Below, piece by piece: positions 1,353-33,700 of a DNA stretch of 64,000 nt (position 1 is the stretch's first letter; each line of letters opens with the position of its first letter). Source of the DNA: Argopecten irradians (Eukaryota; Mollusca; Bivalvia; Pectinida; Pectinidae). The DNA lies in the NCBI RefSeq assembly GCF_041381155.1, contig NC_091134.1:41499338-41563337 (forward strand). The letters run 5' to 3'. The notes beneath the pieces are model-generated. The model was not told the origin of the DNA. It saw only the letters and a list, made by a program, of their open reading frames with translations, and searched no databases. The translations under genes and the position numbers were made by a program.

Positions 1353-4300
1353 CTACAAGGAAATTTACATAAGTGTATAATAAAAAGCAGTGTTACATAG
1401 TTAGGTTTATTAAAAAAATGCAACATTCACTTGTCAGGAATCTTCCAATATGGGGGTTTTGAGATCCCGAAACGATGTAGGTAAAGTATACAATTTACCA
1501 TCGATTAGTCCTGCCTTCCAGTGATTATGATTTCACGAATTTCATGTCAAATGATGAATATCTATTAATCTTATATTAATTTTTAATATTTTTATTAATC
1601 AAATTTGTTTTACAATGTATATGCATCGAAAGCATAAAATAAATGTGATCTTTATATATATATATAACATATACAAGCTAGAGAAATTAATTAATAACAG
1701 TGTTGAAACCAGAAAAGCTGAAGACTCTAAATGATTTTCGTTTATTTGATTGATTTTTTTTTCATTTCAACATAATTAAGATAAGATAAGATAAGATAAG
1801 TTTATTTCTGGTTCAGGACTTATATGTAAAGTCCTCTATACCAGACTCAGACAAAATATAGAGTTTACAGTTAATACATTTTTATCCGGTAATAATAATA
1901 AATTAATGATGTATAAAGGCTTTGTAGTTGTATAAGAGTTCTTGTTCTTTCCAATGTTTGTCTAACGCATTTTTGAAGGAGTTTATATTTGGCGCCATCA
2001 CTACATTCTCTAGTAGATCGTTCCATATCTTAGTAGCTCTTAGTGAAAAAAAATTCTCCTAATCTCATAGTTTGATCTTGTATGGAATAGCTTCCTCCTA
2101 TGCCCCCTGCTGCTCTCGCGGTCCGTTGCATCTTTCCATAAAGATAAAATGTTACAACATTCGGAGTCATATATTCCATCTAAAATTTTGAAGAGTTCTA
2201 TCATGTCTCCTCGTATTCTTCTATATGCCAATGTTGGTAATTTCAGTTTCTCCAGCCTTTGACTGTATGCTAGATGTGACATTCCTGGTAGACATTTTGT
2301 CGCTCTTCTTTGGACACTTTCTATCATTTCTATATGCTTCTGTAGGTAAGGCGCCCATACGGGGCAAGCATAGTCCAAATGAGACCGAACTAAGCATTTA
2401 TATAGCGGAATAAATGATTTGATGTCTAAAAACTGAAAAGTTCTTCTCAAAAGTCCAAACATGGAATTGGCTTTTTTTACTTTCTCTGATATATGGGTGT
2501 CGAAGCTTAACGTGGAATCTACAACTACTCCTATATCTTTTTCTTGGTCTATATGTTGCAGTGTTTTTCCATTGAGCTGGTATTGTATAATTTCCTCACG
2601 TTGGTTTCTTGTTCTCTGTTTGTGTATCCTCATGTGTTTGCATTTATCTGGGTGCATTTTTAGAAGCCACGTTTCACTCCATTTCGACATTGTATCTAAA
2701 TCACTTTGCAGATCTAAAGCATCATCTTTGCCACGGATAGCCTTGAATATTTTAGTATCATCCGCAAATAAGTATACGTCTGACTGCACTATATCTGGAA
2801 GATCATTAACAAATATCACAAATAATAAGGGTCCAAGAACCGATCCTTGTGGAATTCCTGATGTTACACTTGACCATTCGGAATTTTTGCCATTCACTGT
2901 TACCATTTGATGTCTTCCTTTCAAAAAAGATGAAATCCAAGTTTTCATCTGCTGGTTGAAATTATATGAGTTTAATTTATTCAGTAAACGGTTGTGCGGA
3001 ACTGTATCAAAAGCTTTCTGATAATCCATGTATATACAATCGACTACGTCACCTTTATCTAAAGCAGTTGTCCATTTATCCAAAACTTCTAAAAGTTGTA
3101 ATGTTGTTGATCTACCTGATAAGAAACCGTATTGTTTGTTGGAGAAGTACTTGTTTTTCCTCATAAATGTTACTATATGATCCCTTATTAGAGTTTCTAG
3201 TGTTTTACAAACAACTGACGTGAGACTTACAGGCCTGTAGTTTCCCGGTTCACACTTATCTCCTTTTTTGAAAATGGCACACACTCGAGCCCTTTTCCAA
3301 TCATCCGGGGAGTTCCTGTTGAAATTGATTGGTTGAATAACTTCGTTATTGGATATGATATTGTACCAGAGGTATTTTTCAGGAACATCGGGTGGAGTTC
3401 GTCTAGTCCGGGGGATTTATCCGGTTTGAGATTTTTTAGGATCTTTGATACAGCTTCTTGTTCTATATTCATTTGTGACATCTCTTCGGCGACTTCTCTT
3501 ATGTACAGATGAGGGGTCGTGTCCGATTCCTGTATGAATACACTGCAAAAAACCGACATAACACTTCAGCTTTTCCCTTATTTGATGTAACTTTAGTTGA
3601 AGTTTTGTCCGCTGGTTTTGCATATAGTTCTCCAATCTCTGATTTCGACGTAGATTTAGATTTTATATAATTCCAAATTGCTTTTGGATCCGACTTTGCC
3701 TTTATCGCTATATTGTGCTCATATTCTTTCCTCAATTTGCGTGTTAATTTCCTTACTTTATTTCTGACCCTATTGTATTCCTTTTCTCACGTTCATATCC
3801 TTTGTAGTTGCAGCCTTCCTTGATAACGAATGCTTCTTTTTTATGGCTTCAAGTGTTGTTGTATCTGCTGGGAAACTATGCTTGTTGTTCCGACCTATTT
3901 TAATGATTTTTGTAGGGACATGGCTTTCTTCTATTTCTTTGACCACCTTTTTGAAAGTGTTCCAATTCTCGTTGATGTTGTTAGAGTTCATAATTATTTC
4001 GTCCCAGTTGGTATCACTTATCTCCTCGTTTATCCTTTCATAATTGGCATTTTTATAACTCTTTTTCTTCTTGCTTTGTAGAGCTATCTTTACTTTACAA
4101 ATGACCTTAAACAGTAGTACACAGTGATCACTTTTACCTAAAGCGCTTTGATATTCAATATCTGATAGTGAATGCTCGTCTTTGCTTATGATAAGATCTA
4201 GGACATTCGGATTGTCTTGACCTCGCCATCTTGTTGGTTCTTGGACATGTTGGAAAAGAAAGTTGTCTTGGAGTTTTTGAATGAACTTGTATTCTTGAGA

Positions 4301-5367
4301 ATCTGTATTCTCGCTCTTTGTATTCCATGTTTCCCAGTTTATATTTGGATAATTAAAGATGGAGAGTGATCTGCCCCTGATCAAAAGTTTGTTGTGTTTA
4401 TCATTTATTATTCTCTATGAAAGTGAAACAAATTAATTAACTCTTTCTAACTACCATGCATTGCAATTAAAGTACCTATTTCTTTGCATATTTGGAATCA
4501 AAAAAGGTTTTGCTCCATATTTTAAAATCAATATGAATATTTAAAAAACAAGAAACACTTAAACTAAATTAATGAATAAAATACAATTCATTAATATTGT
4601 ATTAATACTAGTAGAAAGCGACTGATTAATAAAATTGAAATTCAATTTCATCATTATGCAAAATAAATAAAATTAATAAATATAATTAAATATGCTAAAC
4701 ATGACATTAGATGATAGTCTGCTAAACTTGCCTATATCATTAGGCAGGTTTTTTCCTATTTTTGAACCCCTTTTTTTTTTCTGCCTAATTTATATTAGAT
4801 ATACCATCAGAAAGAACAAAAAAATGCAAAAATAATAATTCTTATAGGCAGGTTTAGTTTAAATACATGAAATTACCCCATGGACAAAAGTTTTGACTTT
4901 GACTACATACATACAACAATGTGTATGTTAATAGACTATCCTAATTTTAATAAAGAACAACATGTATACAAAAAAGGATGATAATTTCCGCTTTAAGAAA
5001 GCTTCTTAACTTGGATGAATTATGTAATAACAGTAGGAAATGTCACCTGTAGTGTTTGTCTGTACATGTTTGTTTTCAGCCTATATACTCACAATATCAT
5101 CTTTATATGGATCATACAGTTCCCCAGACCAGGTTCCATAGCCTCTGGACAACGGACTGAACATAATTACAATTATCTTACACTCTTTATAAGTAAAAAA
5201 ATAAATATTCCAACTTCCAAGTAATTTACACAAGCTAGTTGTGTTTCCATGTGCTTTACCACTCGTTAATTCCACTTTTTCCTGTTAAGATCCATTTATC
5301 TCACGTTTTACAACTTTTTCCTGACAAAATAATGACGGGAATTTTTACACTTCCCGCGTGTCTCCAT
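990..5367 (-). CDS. KIAA2012-like protein, N-terminal three exons (partial)
   Basis: I assembled three exons on the minus strand: 5365-5367 ATG through 5351 (donor gtgtaa), 5093-5156 (acceptor ttcag, donor gtgagt) and 990-1352 (acceptor ccttgtag, donor gtaaat). Joined, they give 148 codons with no stop and consistent phases (2, 0, 0); the gene runs on past the left window edge. The third exon holds PKTFTTRKGALILFS, followed about 40 residues later by LDRLSLSVLQYGDE. From memory this resembles the PKTFSTRKGALILYS stretch and following leucine-rich segment of vertebrate KIAA2012, a poorly characterised protein; I could not align it. The first exon is only 17 coding bases, so the start is the least certain part. 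The LINE at 1.8-4.4 kb lies in the intron between exons 2 and 3. No signal peptide or membrane segment is visible. The gene is head to head with TMEM258. Confidence 0.5.
2040..3284 (-). pseudogene. Reverse transcriptase region of the LINE ORF2
   Basis: This is the longest open piece of the LINE (414 codons), containing RT blocks 1-7 with the FADD active site. The frame closes at 2040 because of a slip in a run of eight T (minus strand, 2047-2054); the expected C-terminal tail (SLRATKIWNDL, then WKEQELL) continues in another frame down to about 1890. Upstream, the frame joins 3227-3559 after a shift near 3290. Confidence 0.88.
3770..4384 (-). pseudogene. Endonuclease C-terminal region of the LINE ORF2
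   Basis: This 204-codon frame covers the second half of an exonuclease-endonuclease-phosphatase fold: the NYPNINW segment, LDLIIS, and the conserved SDHCVLLF near the end of the domain. The first half is missing by 5' truncation. A one-base shift near 3787 separates it from the following linker (RNKVRKLTRKLRKEYEH) at 3735 and below. Confidence 0.8.
4715..4858. mobile_element. Short palindromic MITE, copy 1
   Basis: This ~140-bp element has inverted ends: AGTCTGCTAAACTTGCC on the left and GGCAGGTTTAG on the right, with a T-rich then A-rich middle. The same termini occur at 13212-13318 and 19793-19922. There is no coding capacity. The right end is more worn than in the other copies. Confidence 0.65.
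5093..5156 (-). CDS. Second exon of the KIAA2012-like gene
   Basis: This is a 64-bp exon between acceptor atgttcag and donor gtgagt, reading PLSRGYGTWSGELYDPYKDD. It joins in phase 0 to the 990-1352 exon. The call rests on both splice sites and the uninterrupted joined frame. Confidence 0.5.
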
Positions 5368-5750: not shown

Positions 5751-8700
5751 ATGGTAAGTAGTAACAAGAAATTGGTTGTTGTACTGAAAACTTTTTATCA
5801 AAATTTACTTAACCTGTTTCGTTTACAAATAATAACTAATATTGAACTTTCTTGTCCGTCATTTTTTATATTTCATTGAATTTTCAGCTCCCTAAACACA
5901 TTTTAATCTGATGTCGTATCGTCGGCAGCCACGTTGCAGAATGACTGCCACCATAACTTGTTTATAATTATAGTTTAGGGTAGCATATACGATCATTGGT
6001 GTGATATACAGTTTAATGATGGATATTAAGGAAGCATATACAGAGAAGTAAATAGGTTGAAATAAAGGTTGTCGATATATTTTTCTTTACCTAACCACGG
6101 TAGTTTTAGCTGTCATACAAGGGAAATAACTCATAACAACATTTTTTTTCATCTTTAGGAAGTCTTATTACAAGGATTTATAAGTGTGAAGGATTTGTCA
6201 TTGTCTCTTTACACTGCTAAACACCACACGAGACGCCTATGAACCGTGAATTAAACAATTTTTCTCAACAAACGCTTGTCTTATTATTTTGAGTCAAATG
6301 AAACACCAATGTAAAGCTTTACAACAGCTTATCCTTTTTTTAAGGACGAAAAATTTCGAAGAAATGTCGTAAATTTTCATTAAAAAACTACAACATATCA
6401 TGACGGCATGCTTTTGAAAGTAAGACAGTACCCGTAAGCTACATCAAAGGTTACGCCAGCGGATATCAAAGGAAAATCGGTCGTCGCCCAACGTCGTGGT
6501 CGGTGCACAAATACAAAAGCGCTCGTGATGTATTGATCTGAAACCCTGGGTGACTTATTCTTCTCACCTATGTCCATGCTTAAAATGATGGCTCATGTTA
6601 ATGGCATCTCGTTTTCTGACTGTGGAAAAGAGAACATTAAAATTTGCACACATATGGGAAATTAAGTTTTATAAACCAGTTTGATTGGAAATAAGATAAG
6701 TTGGTTTTACTGTGATATGACCAAAAAGTCCATGGTGGTGAAATGTTTATGAGGTGTTCAAACTCCCTCGATGTCGGAGCCGCCATTACACATGCATGGC
6801 GGTCGGATGTCTTGTATACTGAACGTTAACTCTGCCACTTGCTTGTGGACTGAGTAATGTAACTTTTGTCCATAACTACACTGTCTGTCCATCCGTCTGT
6901 AACACTTTGTTTCTGTGCAATAACTGTAATATATGTAAACCGATTTTCTTCGAACTTGGTGACAAGGTTAAATGCGTTAAGGGCTCGGCCAAGTTTGATC
7001 GCAGCTGTCGATGGACTTTATTTAGCGGAGTTATGGCCCTTTGCTTAAATTAAAAAAAAAAAGTCAGTTTCTGCCACTTCCATACAATAACTAATAAATA
7101 TTAACCTCTATTCTTCAAACTTGGTAACAAGGTTGAATGCCCTAAGTAGGGCTGTGGATTGTCTAACATGTTGCGATCCGATCCGATCCACGATTCAGGG
7201 TTGACGATTCATAGATCGGACCACGAATCACCAGTTAGATACAAGCAAAAGATTCAATTGAAGTAAAACTGTTTTTATTGATAAATCAATAATGATAAAT
7301 GTTTGATTGATAATAAAACCAATTTTAGCAATTTTACATTCCTTATCATTAAGCAATAGAGTTACAGGTGAAGTACAGTAGGATTCAGTCACTGTAACTG
7401 TAAAAAAATCAAATCATTTGAATTTTGAAATAACGTCCTCTCAAAAATACTGCTGCACATGAATTACGGCATGAATCAAAGTCAACCCATCTGTGAACAG
7501 GTACACTGTATATAAATTATCATGGTAAGGCATAAATCACCATATCAAAACATTTCATTGTTACTTTTATTTTGGTCAAATACAGAAAAACATTGAAATT
7601 AAGAAAAACAAGTATTTAAAATCAATAAGAGAAGTTACAATTTACTTTGGTTCTAGGCCTATAGTTTTTATTTTTAATCAGGTGATTTATGATTTTGACT
7701 CATAATTAGGCCTACCTTTCGTTTTTGACATGGGGTTCACATCTACAGTACTCAGTTGCCTAATATAATATATTCGTATTTTTACATATTTCCGACCCGT
7801 AATGAAAACGAAATCGATAATAATCTTTTACATCTCTAGAAGTCAATTATTATGATTTATCATTATTATTTTATGAAGAATTTACAACATTGCATCGAAG
7901 CGTGGGTACGAAAATAACATGTTGCTAGCTTTACTCCCCCAGCTCTTGTGTACTTCCGGTCTACTTCAAAGTGAAAACATCGATGATATTCAGACTTTAG
8001 TGTACATTCCTTCACATTTTTGAGCTATGACAGCATTAAAGAAGGTATTATGTTTTGCTTTCGAAAGATCGCGATCCACAAATATCAGGAGTAACGAATA
8101 TTCGTATCCGATTTATCTCAATAATTCGTGAATACTCGAGTACTCAGATACTCGTTACAGCCCTAGTCCTAAGTGCCTGGCCAGGTTCGATCAACTCTTT
8201 CAGCGGATGTTATTTATCAGAGTTATGGCCCTTTAATTTATCACAAATGTCATTTCGTAGTTTCTGTGTAATAACTAACAAATGTTAAAACTAATACATG
8301 TATTGTTAAAACTTGGTAACAAAGTTAAATGCCTTAAGGGCTTAGCCAAGTTCGATTGCCACTTTTGGCAGATCTTAATTAGCAGAGTTATGGCCCTTTG
8401 ATTAAAAAAAAAGTCATTTTCTGCCATTTCCCTGCAATAACTCTAATAAATATTATCTCATTTTCCTACAACTTGGTAACAAGGTCAAATGCCTTAAGGG
8501 CTTAGCCAAGTTCGATTGCCACAGCATGTTTAAACCAAGGTTAAACCTAACCTCAATAATGTTTACCTATTATATGTCCTGAAAGCGGGGGATTGAAATT
8601 CCACGAATTTACTTGTTATTATTAATGTATATTCTGTTTCTTATCTGAAAAGCAATGACCAAGAATGTAATTATTATTTTTCAGACGTTTGAACTGGAAT

Positions 8701-9680
8701 CCATGGCTCGGTATGTGAGCCCCATCAACCCTGCTGTGTTTCCCCACCTGACGGTTGTCCTACTGGGTATTGGGATCTTCTTCATGGCCTGGTTCTTTGT
8801 GTATCCTTTTTCTCTGTGTCTCATCAGTTAGTGTGATGGTGAACAGGACTAAATATCAACAATATAGTGTGCTGATGTTTAAAAAATACTGTATTTGACT
8901 CAAAAAGCGCCCAGGGCGTTAAAAAAAATTGAAAAATGAAAAGATGCTAATGAGACGAAATTATTGCAAATCTAGACAGTCTTGTGTAGTTTTGGTCTTT
9001 ATTTATGCGTGTCCAATTGAAATCGAGACCTTATTTATGCATGAACAATTGAAATTGAGGCCTCAAAAAGGGGGGAGGGGCGCTTATAGGGACACGGGCA
9101 CTTATTGGGTCGAATACGGTAATGATAATGATGGTGACCATTTCAATGGTTATGTAAACACATGTTATTTTGTAAAATTGTTAATGGTATTGAGGTATAA
9201 CTTTTATCATTGTTTTAAGATTTGTAGTTTTTGTATAATCAATAAATATGTCTTTTGTTAAATCGGCTTGTAGTATTTATAACTATTGTTATACGCAACA
9301 ATAGAAAAGTTAATTTGCTAAAAAAATCTATTTTCATAAAATGTTTTAGTATGTTTTTATTTGTTATTACTGTGTGTGTAAAAAATATAGAATGCCAATG
9401 GCAATTTGTTTTTTTCAGAGACCGATACATAATGGGATTATCTTAAAACATAGAAATAGTTTAATAGTATGTAAATTAGTAATATTGTCAAATGAACATA
9501 TCAAACAAAGCATTGAGTTTATGTGTGGGTAACATTTCCTTAACCAGACCTAGCTATGAAGTAACATCTAACAAGTTCACACGAGACCTGTACAAGGAGC
9601 TTTTGGTATCCCTAGTAGCTTCAGTATTCATGGGATTTGGAGTGTTATTCCTTCTACTCTGGGTTGGAATATTTATATAG
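5751..9680 (+). CDS. TMEM258: TMEM258, oligosaccharyltransferase complex subunit
   Basis: Three coding exons: 5751-5753 (the ATG alone, followed by gtaagt), 8685-8800 and 9554-9680. They give 81 residues, close to the ~79 of the family. The [16 protein letters not shown] segment, [13 protein letters not shown], and [17 protein letters not shown] with the [10 protein letters not shown] tail are near-identical to animal TMEM258 (Kuduk). There are two membrane helices, about residues 20-40 and 57-80. The protein is a small ER-membrane subunit of the oligosaccharyltransferase that transfers glycans to asparagines. Intron 1 is ~2.9 kb and holds a hAT-like element. Intron 2 (8801-9553) has U12-type signals and contains a MITE. 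Start choice: the exon-1 ATG gives [11 protein letters not shown]; the internal ATG at 8703 would give MARY, removing the conserved acidic N-terminus. Confidence 0.96.
5760..6850. other. TMEM258 intron 1, proximal part; no recognised feature
   Basis: AT-rich intronic sequence. It holds one stop-free stretch of about 34 codons (6440-6541, plus strand) that I could not assign, and the recurrent motif AAGGGAAATAACTC at 6119. Confidence 0.4.
6870..8525 (+). repeat. Diverged tandem/dispersed repeat interrupted by a hAT-like insertion
   Basis: Blocks at 6950-7146 and 8174-8520 share the phrases CTTGGTAACAAGGTTAAATG, CCAAGTTCGATTGCC and AGAGTTATGGCCCTTTG, repeated three to four times at roughly 180-bp spacing. 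The 7147-8165 insertion splits one unit. The family is unknown to me; no ORF. Confidence 0.6.
7147..8165. mobile_element. Non-autonomous hAT-like DNA transposon, 1.02 kb
   Basis: Its ends are TAGGGCTGT and ACAGCCCTA. It is flanked by GCCCTAAG (7139-7146) and GTCCTAAG (8166-8173), an 8-bp target-site duplication with one mismatch, the size typical of hAT. The right subterminal region (GTAACGAATATTCG, GAATACTCGAGTACTC) is palindrome-rich. There is no transposase frame, so it would need a partner in trans. Confidence 0.75.
8685..8800 (+). CDS. TMEM258: TMEM258 exon 2
   Basis: The acceptor is ttttcag, and the exon ends TTCTTTGT before GTATCCTTTT. It codes for the N-terminal segment and first membrane helix. 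It ends in phase 2; the valine codon is split GT|C and completed by the first base of exon 3. Confidence 0.95.
8801..9553 (+). other. U12-type (minor spliceosome) intron of TMEM258
   Basis: The 5' splice site reads GTATCCTTTT, an exact match to the minor-class consensus RTATCCTTT. The branch-point element TTCCTTAAC at 9536-9544 matches the consensus TTCCTTRAY exactly, and its adenosines lie 10-11 nt from the AG at 9552-9553. There is no polypyrimidine tract at the acceptor (CAGACCTAG). This placement is also the only one that restores the conserved FVYEV. Confidence 0.9.
8889..9119. mobile_element. MITE in TMEM258 intron 2
   Basis: Terminal inverted repeats of ~25 bp: left CTGTATTTGACTCAAAAAGC, right complement CCGTATTCGACCCAATAAGT, both running into GCCC. 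TA dinucleotides flank both ends, fitting a Tc1/mariner-type TA duplication. It is about 230 bp and non-coding. Confidence 0.65.
9554..9680 (+). CDS. TMEM258: TMEM258 exon 3
   Basis: It codes for [17 protein letters not shown] and the second membrane helix, ending in TAG at 9678-9680. The open frame extends upstream to 9492, but that part is intron: it includes the branch point. Confidence 0.95.
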
Positions 9681-10105
9681 CATTTACTAAAGGTAATTTC
9701 TACTCTAATTATTCTTATTGTTTATTTGTTAGAGAAAATTTTCATGGAATCTGTGTGTTATGTTGCAAAGAGAAGTAAACAATTTTATTTAACAGTGTTA
9801 TTGTGTATACACAAAAAACTATCCAGATTAGTGATTGATAATGAAATATTTATTTTGATTCATTCCGGTAAACATTTTCATTGCCACTTTTATAGAAGTT
9901 ATCTCCCCTTGGATTTCAGAATCTACACGTGCAGACAAAGATGTGTGGAAGGCTGTGTTGCAGTTATCTCCCTTCGCAGTGACTGACAGCACAGACAAAT
10001 GTATGGGTGGTTGGGACAATGGGTGAATGGATCGAGATGTTTAATTGTCACAGTGTGTCCTCATTGTGCTGTTTCATTGTAAATAAATTAAAAACATTTT
10101 TAGTC
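9681..10105 (+). other. TMEM258 3' UTR with probable intron and poly(A) signal
   Basis: A donor-like AAG|gtaatt follows the stop codon by about 11 bp, and an acceptor (ggatttcag) ends at 9919. A terminal non-coding exon of ~180 bp would then end after AATAAA at 10082-10087, which is followed by a GT-rich stretch. An unspliced UTR reaching the same signal is the alternative. Confidence 0.5.
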
Positions 10106-10498
10106 AAAATATGTGGTTTGTTTTGCAGTCTTGATATACACTTTTTGTTAAGATGAAGTATATTTTAGAAAAGTGATACTAGGGACATATGTCTGGATTT
10201 TGCTCATATATTTCAGCTAATTCTTATATATATGTATATGAGCATGGCAGTAATTTCATTAACATTTTAATTGCTATGTTTGAGTTAACAGAAGACCAAG
10301 GTGCACTTGGTCTACCAACACTGGTTGCGCTATATGATGCTAGTTTCAACACTGGTTCCCAAGGGTGGTTGCATTCTATCTGCTTGACCAATATATGACA
10401 ACTATGTATGGTCTTAATGTAAATACTTTATAACATCTTACTCACAGACGATTACAGATTATGATGATAGAATTACTGTAAAAAGTATGACAGAATAG

Positions 10499-12124
10499 GG
10501 TTATTGGTTAACTCTATAGACCTAGCCTCGGTCTAGAATCAGTAGGGCTACTGGTAAACTCTATAGACCTAGCCTCGGTCTAGGACCAGTAGGGCTAGTG
10601 GTAAACTCTATAGACCTAGCCTTGGTCTAGGACCAGTAGGGCTAGTGGTAAACTCTATAGACCTAGCCTTGGTCTAGAACCAGTAGGGCTAATGGTTAAC
10701 TCCATAGACCTAGCCTCGGTCTAGAACCAGTAGGGTTACTGGTTAACTCTATAGACCTAGCCTTGGTCTAGAACCAGTAGGGCTACCGGTTTACTCTATA
10801 GAGCTAGCCTCGGTCTAGAACCAGTAGGGCTACTGGTTAACTCTATAGACCTAGCCTCGGTCTAGAACCAGTAGGGCTACTGGTTAACTCTATAGACCTA
10901 GCCTCGGTCTAGAACCAGTAGGGCTACCGGTTAACTTTATAGACCTAGCCTCGGTCTAGGACCAGTAGGGCTAGTGGTAAACTCTATAGACCTAGCCTGG
11001 GTCTAGAACCAGTAGGGCTAGTGGTAAACTCTATAGACCTAGCCTGGGTCTAGAACCAGTAGGGCTACTGGTAAACTCCATAGACCTAGCCTCGGTCTAG
11101 GACCAGTAGGGCTAGTGGTAAACTCTATAGACCTAGCCTTGGTCTAGGACCAGTAGGGCTAGTGGTAAACTCTATAGACCTAGCCTGGGTCTAGAACCAG
11201 TAGGGCTAGTGGTAAACTCTATAGACCTAGCCTTGGTCTAGAACCAGTAGGGGTAATGGTTAACTCTATAGACCTAGCCTTGGTCTAGGACCAGTAGGGC
11301 TAGTGGTAAACTCTATAGACCTAGCCTTGGTCTAGAACCAGTAGGGGTACTGGTTAACTCAAGAGACCTAGCCTTGGTCTAGAACCAGTAGGGGTACTGG
11401 TTAACTCAAGAGACCTAGCCTTGGTCTAGAACCAGTAGGGGTACTGGTTAACTCTATAGACCTAGCCTTGGTCTAGAACCAGTAGGGCTACTGGTTAACT
11501 CTATAGACCTAGCCTCGGTCTAGAACCAGTAGGGCTACCGGTTAACTCTATAGACCTAGCCTCGGGTCTAGAACCAGTAGGGCTACCGGTTAACTCTATA
11601 GACCTAGCCTTGGTCTAGAACCAGTAGGGCTACCGGTTAACTCTATAGACCTAGCCTCGGTCTAGAACCAGATGGGCTTGTGGTTAACTCTATAGACCTA
11701 GCCTCGGTCTAGAACCAGTAGGGCTACTGTTTAACTCTATAGACCTAGCCTCGGTCTAGAATCAGTAGGGCTACTGGTTAACTCTATAGACCTAGCTGTG
11801 GTCTAGAACCAGTAGGGAAACTGGTTAACTCTATAGACCTAGTCTTGGTCTAGAACCAGTAGGGGTAATGGTTAACTCCATAGACCTAGCCTTGGTCTAG
11901 GACCAGTAGGGCTAGTGGTAAACTCTATAGACCTAGCCTTGGTCTAGAACCAGTAGGGGTACTGGTTAACTCAAGAGACCTAGCCTTGGTCTAGAACCAG
12001 TAGGGGTACTGGTTAACTCAAGAGACCTAGTCTTGGTCTAGAACCAGTAGGGGTACTGGTTAACTCTAAATACCTAGCTTCGGTCTAGAATCAGTAGGGC
12101 TACTGGTTAACTCTATAGACCTAG
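10499..12124 (+). repeat. 47-bp minisatellite, about 34 copies
   Basis: The unit is 47 bp and contains ACTCTATAGACCTAGCC, then GGTCTAGAACCAGTAGGG, with C/T, G/T and A/G variants at a few fixed positions. Each unit can form two hairpins: ACCAGTAG/CTACTGGT (8-bp stem across the unit border) and TAGACC/GGTCTA (6-bp stem, 7-nt loop). Between TMEM258 and lectin A. Confidence 0.95.
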
Positions 12125-29097: not shown

Positions 29098-29099
29098 TT

Positions 29100-29558
29100 A
29101 TAATATTATAGATAAAGTTCTCCTTATCCTCAAACCATATAATATTATAGATAAAGTTCTCCTTATCCTCAAACCATATAATATTATAGATAAAGTTCTC
29201 CTTATCCTCAAACCATATAATATTATAGATAAAGTTCTCCTTATCCTCAAACCATATAATATTATAGATAAAGTTCTCCTTATCCTCAAACCATATAATA
29301 TTATAGATAAAGTTCTCCTTATCCTCAAACCATATAATATTATAGATAAAGTTCTCCTTATCCTCAAACCATATAATATTATAGATAAAGTTCTCCTTAT
29401 CCTCAAACCATATAATATTATAGATAAAGTTCTCCTTATCCTCAAACCATATAATATTATAGATAAAGTTCTCCTTATCCTCAAACCATATAATATTATA
29501 GATAAAGTTCTCCCTATCCTCAAACCATATAATATTATAGATAAAGTTCTCCTTATCC
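29100..29558 (+). repeat. 39-bp tandem array, ~12 nearly identical copies
   Basis: The unit is TATAATATTATAGATAAAGT followed by TCTCCTTATCCTCAAACCA. Copies are identical except for one substitution at about 29514 and the decayed last border. As 39 is divisible by three, the minus strand reads as a 13-residue repeat for 141 codons, but with no start context, flanking coding sequence or splice support; I treat it as non-coding. Confidence 0.95.
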
Positions 29559-29559
29559 T

Positions 29560-30721: not shown

Positions 30722-33700
30722 CTGTAAGAACAGTTAGCGTAGACATTTAGAAGTCTTATGACATATAGGATCAACATAAATGCACTTTTGTATATAAAAA
30801 AACTTTACTTTTATGTGTTTATATTAAGAGAGTTTTATTTTGTTCAGTACATGAAAAGTCCTGTAAAATATTTTTTCTACGATTTTTTTTGTTGCGATAT
30901 CGAATGGTCGTTATCAAAATAATTAAATTCTCTTAGAGCAACATTTGTGATTGGAAATTAATCTTATTCATATTTACATATAAGAAGAGTTACCATCTAT
31001 TCTTAAAAATAACTTTAAACGAATTTTCTTTAATAGTGAATTTCGCAAAAGTAACTCGGACGCAAAAGAAAATTGGTTCAGTGTATATAAGCTAAAAAAG
31101 ATCAAGCCATGAACAAAATTTTTAATCAGATTTAAAAATATCCAGGAGAATATCACAGTACAAATGGTTTCACTATAAAATTGAACTAACAAGAAAAGAA
31201 AATTAAGGGTAGTTATGAAGCTTTAAAACCAATTGGAGTGCGTGCTTGTTATGTCAATATACCTTCTTTTCTCATTCGAATATAATACAGCAAGGACATA
31301 GTCATTCAGATCCCCCGCCAATGGAGATATGAAAGCTGAAGTAAGTTTAATTGTGGAGACTTATGTGTATGAAAAAAAAAACAACAGGAAAAAGGAAGTT
31401 GAGCTAAAGAAAGATGGAGTATAATTCAAGTAGAGCGGGGCTGCAATTGTTGAATCAGGTATACAGCCTTGACATTTATATTAGACTATATACACAAAGA
31501 TGAGTGGAGTTTTGCAAAGTAACATTTACCATTTACCATGATATTTTCAGCAATGTTTCCATGGTAACGGAAAAAGTGCAAAAAATGAAAACCTAAAAAT
31601 AGCAAAAGGTACTAGACCATAACAAGAGATCCCAGAGGGATCTTGGCGCCCACCTATCTATCTATGATCTATGTCTGACAATGGAAAGAGGAATCTTTTC
31701 CCTGCTTTTAAAACTTTTTCAAACACACTACATATAAAATTTGAGACAGATCGCTATAGTACTTTCTAAGAAATAGTGGTAACAAACTACAACAATGAAA
31801 TCTAAGATGGCGGCCGATTGGCCATCTTGTTTATTGATCAGTCCCGAAAGGCATTATGGATCAGTCCTTAAAGGTACTATGCACAACTAGGGTACAAGGG
31901 GAAACTATGCATGGAATTTGAGAAAGATCCCTTCAGTACTTTCTGAGAAATAGCGATAACAAACTTTAACTATTAAAATCCAAGATGGCGGTCGGTCGGT
32001 CATCTTGTATACCGATCGGTCCAAAAATACAATATGCACATCTAGGGTCCTAGGGGAACCTGTATATGAAATTTGAGAAAGATCCCTTTAGCACTTTTTA
32101 AGAAATAGTGGTAACAAACTTTAACTATCAAAATCCAAGATGGCCACCTGTCGGCCATCTTGTTGACCGATCGGTCCCAAAATGCAATATGCACAACTAG
32201 GGTCCTAGGGGAACCTGCATATGAAATTTGAAAAAGATCCCTTCAGGACTTTTTGAGAAATAGCGGAAACAAACTTTAACTATCAAAATCCAAGATGGCC
32301 ACCTGTCGGCCATCTTGCTCACCGCTCGGTCCCAAAATGCAACATGCACAACTAGGGCCCTAGGGGAACCTATATATGAAATTTGAGAAAGATCCCTTCA
32401 GTACTTTTTGAGAAATAGCGGTAACAAACTTTAACTATCAAAATCCAAGATGGCCGCCTGTCGGCCATTTTGTTTACCGATCGGTCCCAAAATGCAACAT
32501 GCACAACTAAGGCCCTAGTGGAACCTATATATGAAATTTGAGAAAGATCCCTTCAGTTCTTTTTGAGAAATAGCGGAAACAAACTTTAACTATCAAAATC
32601 CAAGATGGCCGCCTGTCGGCCATCTTGTTCACCGATCGGTCCCAAAATGCAACATGCACAACTAGGGTCCTAGGGGAACCTATATCTGAAATTTAAGAAA
32701 GATCCCTTTGGCACTTTTTGAGAAATAGCGGTAACAAACTTTAACTATCAAAATCCAATATGGCCGCCTGTCGGCTATCTTGTTCACCGATCGGTCCCAA
32801 AATGCAATATGCACAAATAGGGTCCTAGGGGAACCTGTATATGAAATTTGAGAAAGATCCCTTCAGTTCTTTTTAGAAATAGCGGAAACAAACTTTAACA
32901 ATAAAAATCCAAGATGGCCGCCTGTCGGCCTCTTGTTCACCGATCGGTCCCAAAATGCAATATGCACAACTAGGGTCCTAGGGGAACCTGTATATGAAAT
33001 TTGAGAAAGATCGCTTCTTCACTTTTTAAGAAATAGCGGTAACAAACTTTAACTATCAAAATCCAAGATGGCCGCCTGTCGGCCATCTTGTCGACCGATC
33101 TGTCCCAAAATGCACTATGCACAACTAGGGTCCTAGGGGAACCTACGTATGAAATTTGAGAAAGATCCCTTCTGTACTTTCTGAGAAATAGCGGTAACAA
33201 GAATTGTTAACGGACGGACGGACGGACGGACGGACGGACGGAAGGACGGAACCCATTTGTATATCCCCCGCCAACTTCGTTGGGCGGGGGATAAAAAACT
33301 GCACTTTCTTTCATTAGTATTGACTGTACTTCACTTTATTGTTATGTCACAAAATAGAAGGATAACAAAACACACTCTGAATCATTTCCGAGCTTAATGA
33401 CTTTTTATATTTGTAAATGTGTACCATGATGAGGATGGATACTTAAATACAAGTTTATGTTAGTTGGTAAGCATACGGATGTACATTCTATCTTAAATAC
33501 CTTATATTCTACGATATAAACTTACATGAAAGGACGCGGCAAATGTAATGCAATATAGATTTTTTTCGTTTAAGAAATAAAAGTACTTTATTAGACACTC
33601 TTTTTGATGAACTTACAGGTAAGGCCATGGCGGGTGTAATATTATAGTGACATTTTCTATAAAGATGCCAATATTATGATATAAACTTACAGGTAAGGCC

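Follow-up and report, generated by a model that had tools for sequence, protein, structure and literature searches.

The window, that is, the whole stretch of 64,000 nucleotides of Argopecten irradians DNA that was analysed (G+C 35%), harbors on its forward strand a gene whose coding exons flank positions 8801–9553 and encode a protein of the Ost5 family (Pfam Ost5, PF05251; 99.7 bits against a cut-off of 27.4). Human TMEM258 (6s7o_C) aligns to this protein gap-free across 74 of 74 residues (E 1.8e-38), and both the profile match and this alignment bear out the identification of the gene as TMEM258 in an earlier note on this DNA. The sole further family listed for the protein, DUF6512, scored below its own cut-off. 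A search of the whole 846-Mb host genome with the protein matched these two exons only (two matches, two candidates scored), and the gene therefore looks single-copy in this genome. Beyond the host, as one would expect of a eukaryotic gene, no relative was confirmed among viral contigs (28 pattern stretches) or among the genomes of bacteria and archaea (129 pattern stretches).

The conserved part of the protein begins with MARY at 8703, within coding exon 2 (8685–8800, forward strand), whose start at 8685 is predicted from the sequence and which ends in the GT of a Val codon, in phase 2. The last coding exon (9554–9680, forward strand) terminates in the stop TAG and is followed by an AATAAA at 10082. 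Upstream, a candidate coding exon 1 is proposed at 8027–8044 (forward strand; ATGACAGCATTAAAGAAG, translated by eye as MTALKK), with GTATTATG directly after it and, 75 nt upstream of it, a ACTTCCGG box that we take to resemble a housekeeping promoter element. The candidate intron 1 (8045–8684, forward strand; AAG/GTATTA ... TTATTTTTCAG/ACG, where slashes mark exon–intron boundaries) would be U2-like, and its donor gives a U1 duplex of -5.7 kcal/mol, against -1.9 kcal/mol for the donor at 8801. A tandem array of about 35 copies of a 47-bp unit (10496–12124) begins about 400 nt past the AATAAA of TMEM258, another holds 8.5 copies of a 155-bp unit (31878–33200), and a nearly perfect 39-bp tandem repeat of 11.8 copies (29099–29559) is open in one forward and two reverse frames. 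Remains of a non-LTR-like retrotransposon lie on the minus strand at 2040–4414, with an RVT_1 match of 124 bits and, in a separate frame, an endonuclease–reverse transcriptase match of 30.4 bits (cut-off 27.4). Searches of the whole window for tRNAs and for Rfam families found none.

The intron between coding exon 2 and the last coding exon was characterized by a junction scan, duplex energies and in-register pairing counts, the scan combining each possible exon end between 8740 and 8859 with each possible start of the next exon between 9400 and 9599. Five placements, which are the same letters sliding across the junction, yield exactly the gap-free protein, and canonical GT-AG ends occur only at 8801–9553 (forward strand, 753 nt), where the Val codon is split GT/C, in phase 2. 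All remaining in-phase pairs of GT, AT or GC with AG or AC add or delete residues. The letters and coordinates of the earlier note hold up: the donor TTTGT/GTATCCTTTTTC lies at 8801, TTCCTTAAC at 9536–9544, and the acceptor is CAGACCTAG/CTATGAA, with 9553 as the last intron base. Its statement that the codon phase fits only this placement is right insofar as this is the only canonical gap-free one, but it is slightly too strong, because an AG at 9547 shares the phase and would add Pro-Ser. With its phase 2 and a U at -1, the intron is in line with the bias against phase 0 and the excess of U at -1 described for U12-type introns in a section of PMC7367187.

At the donor (8801–8812, forward strand), positions +4 to +11 of GTATCCTTTTTC pair in register with the 5' end of host U11, AAAAAGGGC, at 8 of 8 bases, one of them as G-U. 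Such complete pairing is reached at 8 of the 7266 GTs on both strands of the window, 8801 counted in, and, among sites starting with GTA on either strand, at 8801 only. The free-register U11 duplex (-6.1 kcal/mol, rank 127 of 7263 GTs) is good and less exclusive; free-register energy being a blunt measure, in-register pairing was therefore counted too. Pairing with the 5' end of U1 is unremarkable (-1.9 kcal/mol, rank 3234 of 7263 window GTs). The site also agrees with RTATCCTT, presumably the highly conserved consensus of U12-type donors, and the exact match to the diagnostic donor element claimed earlier is confirmed. Donors of the RTATCCTT type appear in Table 1 of PMC7367187.

Upstream of the acceptor, TTCCTTAAC (9536–9544, forward strand) ends 9 nt before the end of the intron. 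Without mismatch and at branch distance (8–21 nt), this motif precedes 2 of the 6503 AGs on both strands of the window, and both of these (9553 and 9561) are served by the single motif at 9536–9544. It conforms to TTCCTTRAC, close to the acceptor, which we take to be the U12 branch consensus, and an exact branch element 10–11 nt before the acceptor is thus present as first described. By eye, TTCCTTAAC is the complement of GUAAGGAA in host U12 with one A bulged, while the folding program favours a straight helix, UUCCUUA/UAAGGAA, over the bulged A; the free-register U12 duplex (-6.9 kcal/mol, rank 160 of 6498 AGs) is again good and less exclusive. The branch adenosine is either 9542 or 9543, and the distance to the last intron base is accordingly 11 or 10 nt, which is at or adjoining the optimum of 11–13 nt given in an excerpt of PMC3584512, where either A is said to be able to serve.

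The acceptor AG lies at 9552–9553 (forward strand), behind an earlier in-phase AG at 9546–9547, and the branch motif is followed by the nine letters CAGACCTAG. The same excerpt of PMC3584512 describes U12 introns as having no distinct polypyrimidine tract. The absence of such a tract had been claimed here as well, and it stands in that CAGACCT alone separates the branch motif from the AG; a count of pyrimidines from -18 to -4 (10 of 15, mostly the branch motif itself) does not, however, by itself separate 9553 from U2-like AGs in the intron, where the AGs richest in pyrimidines have 11–12 of 15. If donor and branch motif are taken as independent, the chance of finding both at a junction defined by homology is 8/7266 x 2/6503, or about 3e-7, with counts that include the site itself.

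All four of the snRNAs that set the minor spliceosome apart are encoded in the host genome, each over its Rfam cut-off. The search scored the best first-look candidates only, so the copy numbers are lower bounds: at least one U12 gene (108.5 bits), at least two U11 genes (100.8 bits each), at least one U4atac gene (77.1 bits) and at least two U6atac genes (96.9 and 92.8 bits). Both U6atac copies contain AAGGAGAGA, presumably the donor-pairing stretch, and the first copy is predicted to form a duplex of -6.9 kcal/mol with the TMEM258 donor. The two U11 genes (G000:C2:16868355-16868483 and 16907088-16907216) lie about 39 kb apart, with equal scores and, by eye, the same letters.

Two further genes, PTEN and EIF3K, were read as controls from the same genome. 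The minor intron of PTEN is presumably intron 1. A passage of PMC3728624 attributes a minor intron both to human PTEN and to human EIF3K. The human PTEN query gave ten matches, of which the five lying together in exon order on C5 were read and the five on C6, C7 and C16 were left out. Exon 1 of host PTEN ends in ...GATTTGACAT/GTATCCTTTTTAATTT and the next exon follows ...TGTTCCTTAACAGCTTATCAG/ACATCTATCC, so that the ends of its intron 1 read CAT/GTATCCTTTTT ... TTCCTTAACAGCTTATCAG/AC. Four further donors of the gene are U2-like by eye and carry no ATCC (TCG/GTAGGT, AAG/GTAGTG, AAG/GTACAA and GTA/GTAAGT). Host EIF3K (G000:C10:39874748-39875392), the sole match to its query, is a continuous open frame of 258 aa that spans residues 3–217 of 218; the minor intron of the human counterpart is absent from it, and the gene is uninformative as a control because an uninterrupted frame leaves no intron there. 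It may perhaps be a retrocopy that took over from the original gene. One of the two controls, PTEN, is thus informative, and it agrees with the minor class.

A MITE of about 230 bp had been noted in the TMEM258 intron, and it is indeed found at 8887–9121 (forward strand), with terminal inverted repeats that are 26 nt long and imperfect (21 of 26 matching), TA at each end and relatives across the genome. These relatives amount to at least 46 matches, with some copies split over several matches, when the best 40 of 2727 first-look candidates are scored. The TA at both ends is compatible with a TA target-site duplication. Within the element, a 32-nt unit is tandemly duplicated (two copies, 8999–9062, forward strand, the second unit at 9031–9062), and this duplication is absent in this form from the 11 other copies in an alignment of twelve loci that includes the present one; one of them, L010, has by eye a longer duplication of its own over an overlapping stretch. 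The MITE begins 86 nt inside the donor, ends 432 nt before the acceptor and overlaps no splice signal. The origin of the intron from the MITE was considered and rejected, since at these distances the element supplies neither signal.

Taken together, these signals indicate that 8801–9553 is almost certainly a genuine U12-type GT-AG intron, in phase 2, in an animal TMEM258 gene that encodes an Ost5-family subunit of the oligosaccharyltransferase. Its actual splicing, its use of the snRNAs and the dependence of the gene on the minor spliceosome are predicted from the DNA. According to the proposed model, U11 would base-pair at the donor and U12 at UUCCUUAAC, leaving the branch adenosine bulged out, and the two would recognise donor and branch site jointly, as in established minor-spliceosome biology, after which U6atac would take over from U11 at the donor. 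The exon would then be joined behind 9553, the second AG past the branch site and the first at a workable distance, 9547 presumably being passed over because it is too close to the branch site. The MITE, lying clear of every splice signal, would be a passenger. If the intron were retained, the frame would run for nine more codons to a stop at 8829–8831, and the contribution of the last exon would be lost, namely the second half of the protein with, by eye, the second membrane helix; full-length TMEM258 would therefore depend on minor splicing. The description of the product as a core glycosylation subunit is fair in one sense, although TMEM258 is not the catalytic subunit.

For the alternatives, C11ORF10 is taken to be the older name of TMEM258. 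The one that survives best, although it is distinctly unlikely, is a twintron-like gene, in which the minor pair would be used normally and a U2-type pair, GTATGT at 8711 and TTTTTTTCAG ending at 9418, would be used on failure of minor splicing. Such a fallback would suit the U1 duplex energies, -6.3 kcal/mol for 8711 and -1.9 for 8801, and the T-rich AG at 9418, which belongs to a candidate U2-like cryptic acceptor inside the intron (9405–9418, forward strand; TTTGTTTTTTTCAG), 135 nt before its 3' end; a passage of PMC3728624 also has U6atac-inactivated human cells resort to cryptic major sites around the minor intron of C11ORF10. However, joining 8710 to 9419 would lose most of the protein, with a stop after 11 codons (by eye), and in AT-rich DNA such as this window both GT and T-rich AG sites occur often. 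It is very unlikely that the intron is U12-type but uses the AG at 9547, alone or as a second form, which would place Pro-Ser after the junction Val; the phase would be unchanged and no stop introduced, and CAG is the commoner acceptor trinucleotide, but the insert would break a junction that aligns gap-free to human TMEM258, and intron 1 of host PTEN likewise skips an AG just behind its branch site. This AG also lies only 4–5 nt from the branch A, against the optimum of 11–13 nt stated in the excerpt of PMC3584512. Least probable is an intron of the U2 type with ends that look like U12 motifs, either by coincidence or as remnants of an ancestral U12 intron, since, although GT-AG ends are common to both classes and conversion from U12 to U2 type has been proposed and illustrated in a section of PMC7367187, the donor and branch motifs are both perfect, pairing with U1 is ordinary and just CAGACCT stands between branch motif and AG.

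The U12-type call is thus correct and well supported, and it is an ordinary one. C11ORF10 is named among human minor-intron-containing genes in a passage of PMC3728624, published in 2013, so that the suggestion that the TMEM258 minor intron is special is weakened, and the minor-spliceosome dependence of the gene is not new. The literature searched returned nothing on TMEM258, by that name, with the minor spliceosome, minor introns or U12, a single paper on C11orf10 with U12-type or minor introns, nothing on minor or U12 introns in bivalves, and nothing linking minor-intron-containing genes with the oligosaccharyltransferase. A broader proposal, which we regard as unlikely, is that the minor intron of TMEM258 has occupied the same codon since the protostome–deuterostome ancestor and that, together with a nearby U2-type fallback pair, it would let the level of U6atac set the level of this shared oligosaccharyltransferase subunit, in mammals and invertebrates alike. 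Part of PMC10639083 describes minor introns as relatively enriched in molluscs. Against the U12-type call itself, a section of PMC2831892 puts the conservation of human minor introns at only about 20% of invertebrate comparisons. The TMEM258 intron alters no current view; it offers a clear non-vertebrate case of a gene that carries a minor intron as its human counterpart is known to do, and it is consistent with, but no proof of, long-term conservation of the intron. The two near-identical minor introns of TMEM258 and PTEN, with the four minor snRNAs, can serve as anchors for annotating minor introns in the host genome.

Compared with known systems, the closest counterpart is the human C11ORF10 (TMEM258) gene, which is the same gene by protein and is also minor-intron-containing, the likeness being known at the level of the gene (from the passage of PMC3728624). 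Within the host, intron 1 of PTEN shares with the TMEM258 intron the donor GTATCCTTTTT, the branch motif TTCCTTAAC, the GT-AG ends and the skipping of an AG just after the branch site, at 9547 in TMEM258; it differs in its phase, 1 instead of 2, and in its size, its flanking exons lying about 24 kb apart, whereas the TMEM258 intron measures 753 nt. The inserted element, in turn, has in common with TA-flanked MITEs its 26-nt inverted repeats, TA ends and many copies, while the 32-nt internal duplication is this copy's own.
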